A DNA stretch of 21,519 bases from positions 1-21,519 of the forward strand of contig JAGLYR010000174.1 of the NCBI GenBank assembly GCA_023132135.1. The letters run 5' to 3'. Position 1 is the first letter of the stretch. Each line of letters begins with the position of its first letter. This document shows positions 7,853 through 14,665 of the stretch, piece by piece. The DNA comes from Candidatus Eiseniibacteriota bacterium. GTDB lineage: Bacteria; Arandabacterota; Arandabacteria; JAGLYR01. The position numbers and the translations under genes were made by a program. The notes beneath the pieces were generated by a model, which saw only the letters and a list, made by a program, of their open reading frames with translations, was not told the origin of the DNA and did no database searches.

Positions 7853-7874
7853 GCCCGTTGTCAGGAAGTAGTTC

Positions 7875-7911
7875 AAGGCCGCCCGGGGTTTCCCGGGCGG
7901 CCTTGTTCTTT
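7875..7911 (+). terminator. Rho-independent terminator after the large secreted protein gene
   Basis: A perfect 13-bp stem (AAGGCCGCCCGGG at 7875-7887 with its complement at 7892-7904) with a 4-nt loop lies 22 bp past the stop codon and is followed by a T-rich tail (GTTCTTT). The palindromic element begins at the last T's of the tail. Confidence 0.85.
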
Positions 7912-8091
7912 AGCCCGCGTTTCTCACCAGCCATCTGCTGCGGCGTCGTATCTACCTGCACTCACTTCGTCATACTCGTTCGGCGATCCTCGACGTACCT
8001 TTCGGTACGCCTCCGGTCTCCTCACTCGCATTTCTCGTCATTACAGGTATCTACAACGCCTCGCGACGAGGCTGGTGAGAAACGCGGGCTA
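7911..8091. repeat. 181-bp long palindromic element, full copy (MITE-like)
   Basis: The ends are perfect 22-bp inverted repeats (7911-7932 and 8070-8091). Inside them the arms remain partly complementary for most of their length; 'GGCGT', 'GTA' and 'TACCTG' blocks match in order. The exact midpoint (8001) is a hairpin, CGTACC-TTTC-GGTACG (7994-8009). Both ends carry TA (7911-7912 and 8090-8091), as expected for a TA target duplication. No open reading frame of note lies inside. A non-autonomous transposable element (IS630/mariner-type TA insertion) or a REP/BIME-like structured repeat would fit. Homologous copies are at 8090 and 21388. Confidence 0.8.
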
Positions 8092-8114
8092 GCCTGCATT
8101 TCTCACCAGTTTTC
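8090..8114. repeat. solo left end of the palindromic element
   Basis: The 25 bp here are identical to 21388-21412 and match 7911-7930 at 18 of 20 positions (consensus TAGCCYGCRTTTCTCACCAG). It shares its first TA with the right end of the full copy, so the two abut head-on. No matching right arm was found downstream, so this is a truncated copy. Confidence 0.75.
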
Positions 8115-8157
8115 GGCCGTGGAGGGCATTGTGAGGAAATTGGACATTAGAAATTAG

Positions 8158-8364: not shown

Positions 8365-8393
8365 TTGACACATTTGGGGCCCTTGGGTATAGT
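8365..8393 (+). promoter_or_regulatory. sigma70 promoter of the surface lipoprotein operon
   Basis: TTGACA (8365-8370) and TATAGT (8388-8393) are spaced 17 bp. Transcription from near 8400 would include the 11-bp repeat array in a leader of about 128 nt before the ATG at 8528. Like the promoters at 2292 and 4129, it reads TTGACAC and GGTATA around the two boxes. Confidence 0.7.
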
Positions 8394-8422: not shown

Positions 8423-8475
8423 TGCGCTTCGGCTGCGCTTCGGCTGCGCTTCGGCTGCGCTTCGGCTGCGTCGGC
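8423..8475. repeat. 11-bp x4 tandem array in the leader of the lipoprotein operon
   Basis: TGCGCTTCGGC is repeated exactly four times (8423-8466), followed by a partial copy lacking two bases (8467-8475). It lies between the promoter and the ribosome binding site. Period 11 is about one helical turn, and each unit also carries GCTTCGGC, a stable UUCG-tetraloop-type hairpin sequence in RNA. Confidence 0.85.
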
Positions 8476-8527
8476 TTCTCATTTCCGGAATCCTTACCCG
8501 TGAGCGACAGTACGGAGAAATGTGAAT

Positions 8528-14598: not shown

Positions 14599-14665
14599 GT
14601 TCGCCGCCAGGCCGCATTCTCCCGCTGGTGAGACATGCAGGCAAAAGGAAGCGAGGTAAGACGGC

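Follow-up and report, generated by a model that had tools for sequence, protein, structure and literature searches.

The Element and its Surroundings

The window analyzed here is a 21,519-nucleotide stretch of contig JAGLYR010000174.1 from the assembly of a Candidatus Eiseniibacteriota bacterium (GCA_023132135.1). At 7911-8091, after a strong terminator of 14 pairs (7874-7905), it contains a 181-bp imperfect palindrome, the first and last 22 bases of which are perfectly complementary. Compared without gaps, the arms match at 45 of 90 positions (shuffled sequences: mean 22, maximum 35), and a hairpin of the sequence GTACC-TTTC-GGTAC lies at the midpoint. The perfect terminal repeats, the partly complementary arms, the central hairpin and the terminator directly upstream had all been described in the initial annotation, and each was confirmed. 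The fold z-scores of 7911-8091 are -7.0 as DNA and -9.35 as RNA, with none of 200 shuffles folding equally well. The element is short and lacks a transposase gene, while its copies are many and dispersed.

The features of the window are given in Table 1, in which the element proper is the 181 bp less the TAG and CTA that are part of the target copies, and the minus strand of the window corresponds to the plus strand of the covariance models. The right end of the second copy is not clearly recognizable, and a model match is absent past its 14-mer end at 8093. The copy at the contig end begins where the gene upstream of it ends, at the stop codon TAG. Both further copies of the initial annotation (at 8090 and 21388) are thus present, the former being decayed or short, while a third at about 14608-14644 had been missed. 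Four tandem 11-bp units (TGCGCTTCGGC; 8423-8466) precede a gene that begins near 8522, and a promoter-like TTGACA-17-TATAGT (11/12) is present at 8365-8393. None of the Rfam 15 families matched with a score that reached its curated threshold; microRNA matches below the threshold, at 8070-8111, reflect a hairpin made by two abutting ends.

Table 1. Features of the element and its relatives in the window.
Feature	Position	Strand	Basis
Left target-site copy, TTAG	7910-7913		Sequence and the 4-bp YTAR duplication rule from 166 insertions
Element proper, 175 bp	7914-8088	-	R1, 145.5 bits, E 2e-48 on the minus strand; target-site duplication analysis
Outer cap, 31 nt including TAG: IS1380-type terminal inverted repeat CCCGCGTTTCTCACCAG and motif GCAGCAGA (minus-strand reading)	7911-7941		Outside the R2 core match; ends equal IS1380 ends
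Conserved core, 119 nt; elsewhere occurs without IS1380 caps	7942-8060	-	R2, 76.7 bits, E 1.8e-19, minus strand only
Outer cap, 31 nt including CTA: IS1380-type terminal inverted repeat and motif TCGTCGCGAGG (minus-strand reading)	8061-8091		R1 and R2 matches; IS1380 ends
Right target-site copy CTAG, common to the next element	8089-8092		Sequence
Second copy, decayed or short, beginning CCTGCATTTCTCAC	8093-8145	+	Exact 14-mer end at 8093
Degenerate short copy, intergenic between two genes; right end GTGAGACATGCAGG, 1 mismatch	14608-14644	+	R1, 8.4 bits, E 0.026; end scan
Subfamily-B copy, truncated by the contig end	21388-21519	-	R1, 57.8 bits, E 6e-19

Copies in the Host Genome and Target Sites

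In the host's own 3.40-Mb genome (345 contigs), the end motif had 239 matches with no more than 3 mismatches, and a reversed-pattern control had none. A covariance model search identified 21 full-length copies of 180-182 bp, and the copies form two subfamilies of common length and architecture. Given that many contigs stop within copies, these counts are lower bounds. Derivatives of 53 bp that consist of the two caps only, with the whole core missing, were also found (L055 1501-1553, L054 178-230 and L060 92-144); they suggest that the caps alone may be sufficient for persistence. The intergenic mosaics that hold these copies also contain a separate family of short palindromes, which have TAGCCTGGATTAT...-type ends (L032, L060 and L077).

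Exact duplications of 4 bp were found at 76 of 166 insertions, compared to 1 at 3 bp and 2 at 5 bp. The target is YTAR, for which CTAG is most frequent, followed by CTAA and TTAG. It should be noted that target preference by itself yields a mean of 33 matches (maximum 48) in 1000 re-pairings, so that the evidence is the excess over that number. Agreement is also seen between the base outside the left TA and that inside the right TA (C/C in 57 and T/T in 17 cases, versus 10 C/T cross pairs). The duplicated target is therefore 4 bp and not the TA of the initial annotation, which places the element proper at 7914-8088. The two target copies of the window element differ at one base (TTAG versus CTAG).

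Empty sites from other genomes indicate clean insertion. The element at L143 sits inside another copy of the family, and the same site is uninterrupted at L188 (101 bp, ungapped) and L174 (143 bp, ungapped), each with a single CTAG. At L158, a Bryobacterales MAG carries an element whose site is empty in a second such MAG (L200), which aligns without a gap and has a single CAAG. No empty counterpart of the window copy itself was detected in this search. The nucleotide search and the empty-site check proposed in the initial annotation thus recovered many copies beyond those of the window and empty sites in other genomes, although the sites carry a single 4-bp CTAG or CAAG rather than the single TA that had been anticipated. 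Together, the 239 end matches, the 21 full-length copies and the empty sites bear out its description of a mobile, non-coding MITE.

IS1380 Transposases and Ends

The host genome encodes an intact IS1380-family transposase of 459 aa, which scored 517.6 bits against PF13701 and 390.6 bits against the NCBIfam IS1380 model (cutoff, 180 bits); no solved structure was matched by its sequence. The downstream end of this gene is GTGAGAAATGCGGG followed by CTAA, which is identical to the MITE end. The IS630-family transposase with matching ends that had been predicted is thus replaced by one of the IS1380 family, for which the right end is exact. A recognizable left end of this IS1380 copy was not found. 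The position expected for the left end, immediately upstream of the transposase gene, is taken up by an IS3-type element (L208/L240, contig C139). We infer that this transposase probably moves the window element.

Bryobacterales, Crocosphaera and named plasmids of Bradyrhizobium and Rhizobium were found to carry complete IS1380 elements that show 4-bp duplications and whose ends are identical or nearly identical to those of the window element, including a 1657-bp element of Bradyrhizobium pCB82_1 (CTAG duplication) and a 1646-bp element of R. leguminosarum p3 (TTAG duplication). In the gammaproteobacterium SZUA-41, both ends of an IS1380-like element equal a MITE end of that genome over about 40 bp; 17 other genomes searched contained no SZUA-41-like transposase. 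PF13701 matches were absent in several element-rich genomes (G042, G061, G062, G063 and G065), which would need loss, an unassembled partner or another transposase.

A Conserved Core with Different Ends

A set of 34 sequences from many phyla with less than 88% identity aligned with conserved motifs, and most of their stem pairs stay paired despite the sequence change. In alignment A1, which comprises 27 sequences with the own genome left out and is the basis of the full-length model R1, pairing holds in 91.9% of cells, and covariation scores 0.492 versus 0.18 for shuffled and at most 0.12 for slid alignments. Some R1 matches have the same interior with wholly different inverted ends, and another class of elements, of about 120 nt, is without the outer module. 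From 28 of these core-only elements, which come from 9 genomes and include neither own-genome nor IS1380-capped sequences, a second model (R2) was built; its covariation score is 0.660 versus 0.21 when shuffled. R2 nevertheless finds the exact middle of the window copy, on the same strand as R1 only.

The ends around the core vary among genomes and include GAGCCAATTGCAAAATTATG in G282, where several copies have 4-bp duplications, TAGTTCGGGTGGCGGG in G091 and, in still other genomes (L273 and L281), GCCCGGATTATTCA, which is related to the TAGCCTGGATTAT...-type ends. Target duplications were absent in the core-only copies examined. The internal loops and the motifs CGTMGCGAG, CGCAGYAGA and AGGCRTA/TACGTCGAG are kept across phyla. 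Judged by sequence, the core is not IS1380-specific, as many bacteria have it either by itself or capped by other terminal repeats.

With composition-matched shuffling, the predicted strand had the lower z-score in 22 of 27 and 23 of 28 sequences. Among pairs common to both strands, wobble counts were 41 GT versus 22 AC in alignment A2 and near even in the interior of A1 (46 versus 36). The z-scores and the wobble counts are moderate evidence that one strand folds in function. By home-made ORF calls, which are crude and make the numbers rough, the element is co-directional with 13 neighboring genes and opposite to 23, so that a role in the sense transcript is unsupported.

Of 80 core-only copies, 13 have a tRNA gene at a distance of no more than 7 bp (2-7 bp; L307, L311, L316, L317, L368, L369, L371, L372, L376, L377, L378, L404 and L443), a count based on a few genomes. 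In every case read, the 3' side of the core faces the tRNA, at either end of which it may lie, and both sense and antisense orientations occur. Four core-only copies of G255 (L396, L397, L399 and L401) have GTAG on the left flank and CGTC on the right; GTAG and CGTC are the two REP tags of PMC3733652.

Distribution among Bacteria

A scan of 84,980 species genomes yielded at least 118 stretches in which the two ends lie about 180 bp apart. The stretches listed come from Gamma-, Delta- and Alphaproteobacteria, Acidobacteria, Cyanobacteria, Planctomycetes, Gemmatimonadetes, Nitrospira, Neomarinimicrobiota, Verrucomicrobia and others, and among them the element lengths peak sharply at 182 bp. R1 matched 32 of 290 sampled species, and R2 matched 46 of 290 species genomes (16%), including 4 of 7 class relatives. 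Searches of plasmids with blastn detected neither the Thiodiazotropha element nor a core-only element. The suggestion that the family is one of this lineage was too narrow, given that it spans many phyla from Cyanobacteria to Planctomycetes. From these comparisons, a widespread, strongly covarying and apparently strand-asymmetric core wears IS1380 caps.

Alternative Explanations

The two element types considered in the initial annotation fit poorly. An IS630/Tc1-mariner MITE that duplicates TA would account for the TA that flanks most copies on both sides (88 copies with intact TA/TA ends), but exact repeats are found at k = 4 and not at k = 2, the flanking bases outside and inside the TA agree, and IS1380 elements show the same ends and target, which together leave this origin with hardly any credibility. 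A REP/BIME-type repeat mobilized by a RAYT (Y1) transposase is likewise very unlikely. Although the elements are palindromic, intergenic and multicopy, RAYT-type genes are present in 15 of 16 genomes tested and some G255 core-only copies carry the REP-tag flanks, the unit is 181 bp instead of 20-40 bp and has a 4-bp target-site duplication, and none of 20 RAYT loci had an R2 match, one of them containing only a 65-bp remnant.

The remaining two alternatives concern the interior. MITEs are usually palindromic, the SZUA-41 insertion sequence has two like ends, and paired changes can arise by template switching; the window element could thus be an ordinary MITE, whose palindromic interior records an end-to-end deletion of IS1380 and whose covariation results from template switching that homogenizes the arms and not from structural selection. 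We consider this improbable, as homogenized arms should lose their mismatches, whereas the internal loops and motifs persist across phyla at a length fixed near 182, and the core is also found with unrelated ends. The reading of the core as a structured RNA that has a role in the cell and was picked up by transposon ends has a better chance, but is still unlikely. It would agree with the strand-asymmetric stability, with the tRNA-adjacent core-only copies of several genomes and with the Geobacter family of similar central palindrome that is annotated as short RNAs (PMC2700814). The many copies per genome, the lack of a sense-orientation bias and the occurrence of tRNA-adjacent copies in both orientations argue against it.

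Proposed Explanation

The reading that we favor, at a probability of about 0.78, is that the element belongs to the IS1380 group as a non-autonomous transposon (MITE), with a capped 119-nt core that is kept for the folding of one strand. An IS1380-family transposase acting in trans would recognize the CCYGCRTTTCTCAC caps, and insertion at YTAR, usually CTAG, would duplicate the 4 bp. One strand of the core, as RNA or single-stranded DNA, would fold into a particular bulged hairpin, for which the core would be kept. Recognition by a transposase or a host protein during spread is the most likely reason for its retention, which we propose tentatively; an RNA-level effect on host transcripts comes next and is possible but doubtful.

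At somewhat less than even odds, the elements could constitute a previously unrecognized superfamily of structured, gene-less mobile elements, in which one 119-nt core under single-strand-structure selection is carried on interchangeable ends. The end types of such a superfamily would be IS1380 caps with YTAR duplication, GAGCC-type ends with 4-bp duplication, and duplication-free forms that are often beside tRNA genes.

The interiors of MITEs are usually regarded as decaying filler. Here it is the interior that is conserved, its length, loops and covarying stems being shared across phyla and between copies with unrelated ends, which suggests that a very common bacterial repeat has a function yet to be described. 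The mobility mechanism is corrected to one that would be IS1380/piggyBac-like, with YTAR as the predicted targets.

Comparison with Known Systems

The closest likeness is to the IS1380-family insertion sequences, the bacterial relatives of piggyBac, with which the window element shares the terminal repeat CCYGCRTTTCTCAC and the 4-bp YTAR target duplication, a length within the 4-5 bp of IS1380-type duplications; it differs from them in lacking a transposase gene and in having the conserved core. ERIC and Correia (NEMIS) elements are, by description, similarly palindromic, intergenic, gene-less repeats of about 100-200 bp, the effects of which on transcripts are reviewed in PMC10969869; in contrast to them, the window element has IS1380 ends and a 4-bp YTAR target duplication. 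IS1380 goes unmentioned in that MITE review. The Chunjie MITE of Geobacter uraniireducens (178-235 bp; PMC10969869) resembles the element in size and MITE style. The terminal repeat string occurs in no open-access paper.

For the core, the nearest prior note of a similar palindrome, and the only one found, is that of the 24 predicted short RNA elements of Geobacter metallireducens, which share a central palindrome GRCGTAGCGCTGCTACGCC and also occur in Desulfotalea (Aklujkar et al., 2009; PMC2700814, Additional file 4). Compared by description, these elements are likewise intergenic and multicopy, and GRCGTAGCGCTGCTACGCC resembles the central hairpin of the core. They differ in having been described from a few Deltaproteobacteria only, with no IS1380 caps, mobility or cross-phylum spread in the description. 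The element is of an already known kind as an IS1380-type MITE, and what makes it notable is the conserved core with its apparently exchangeable ends.
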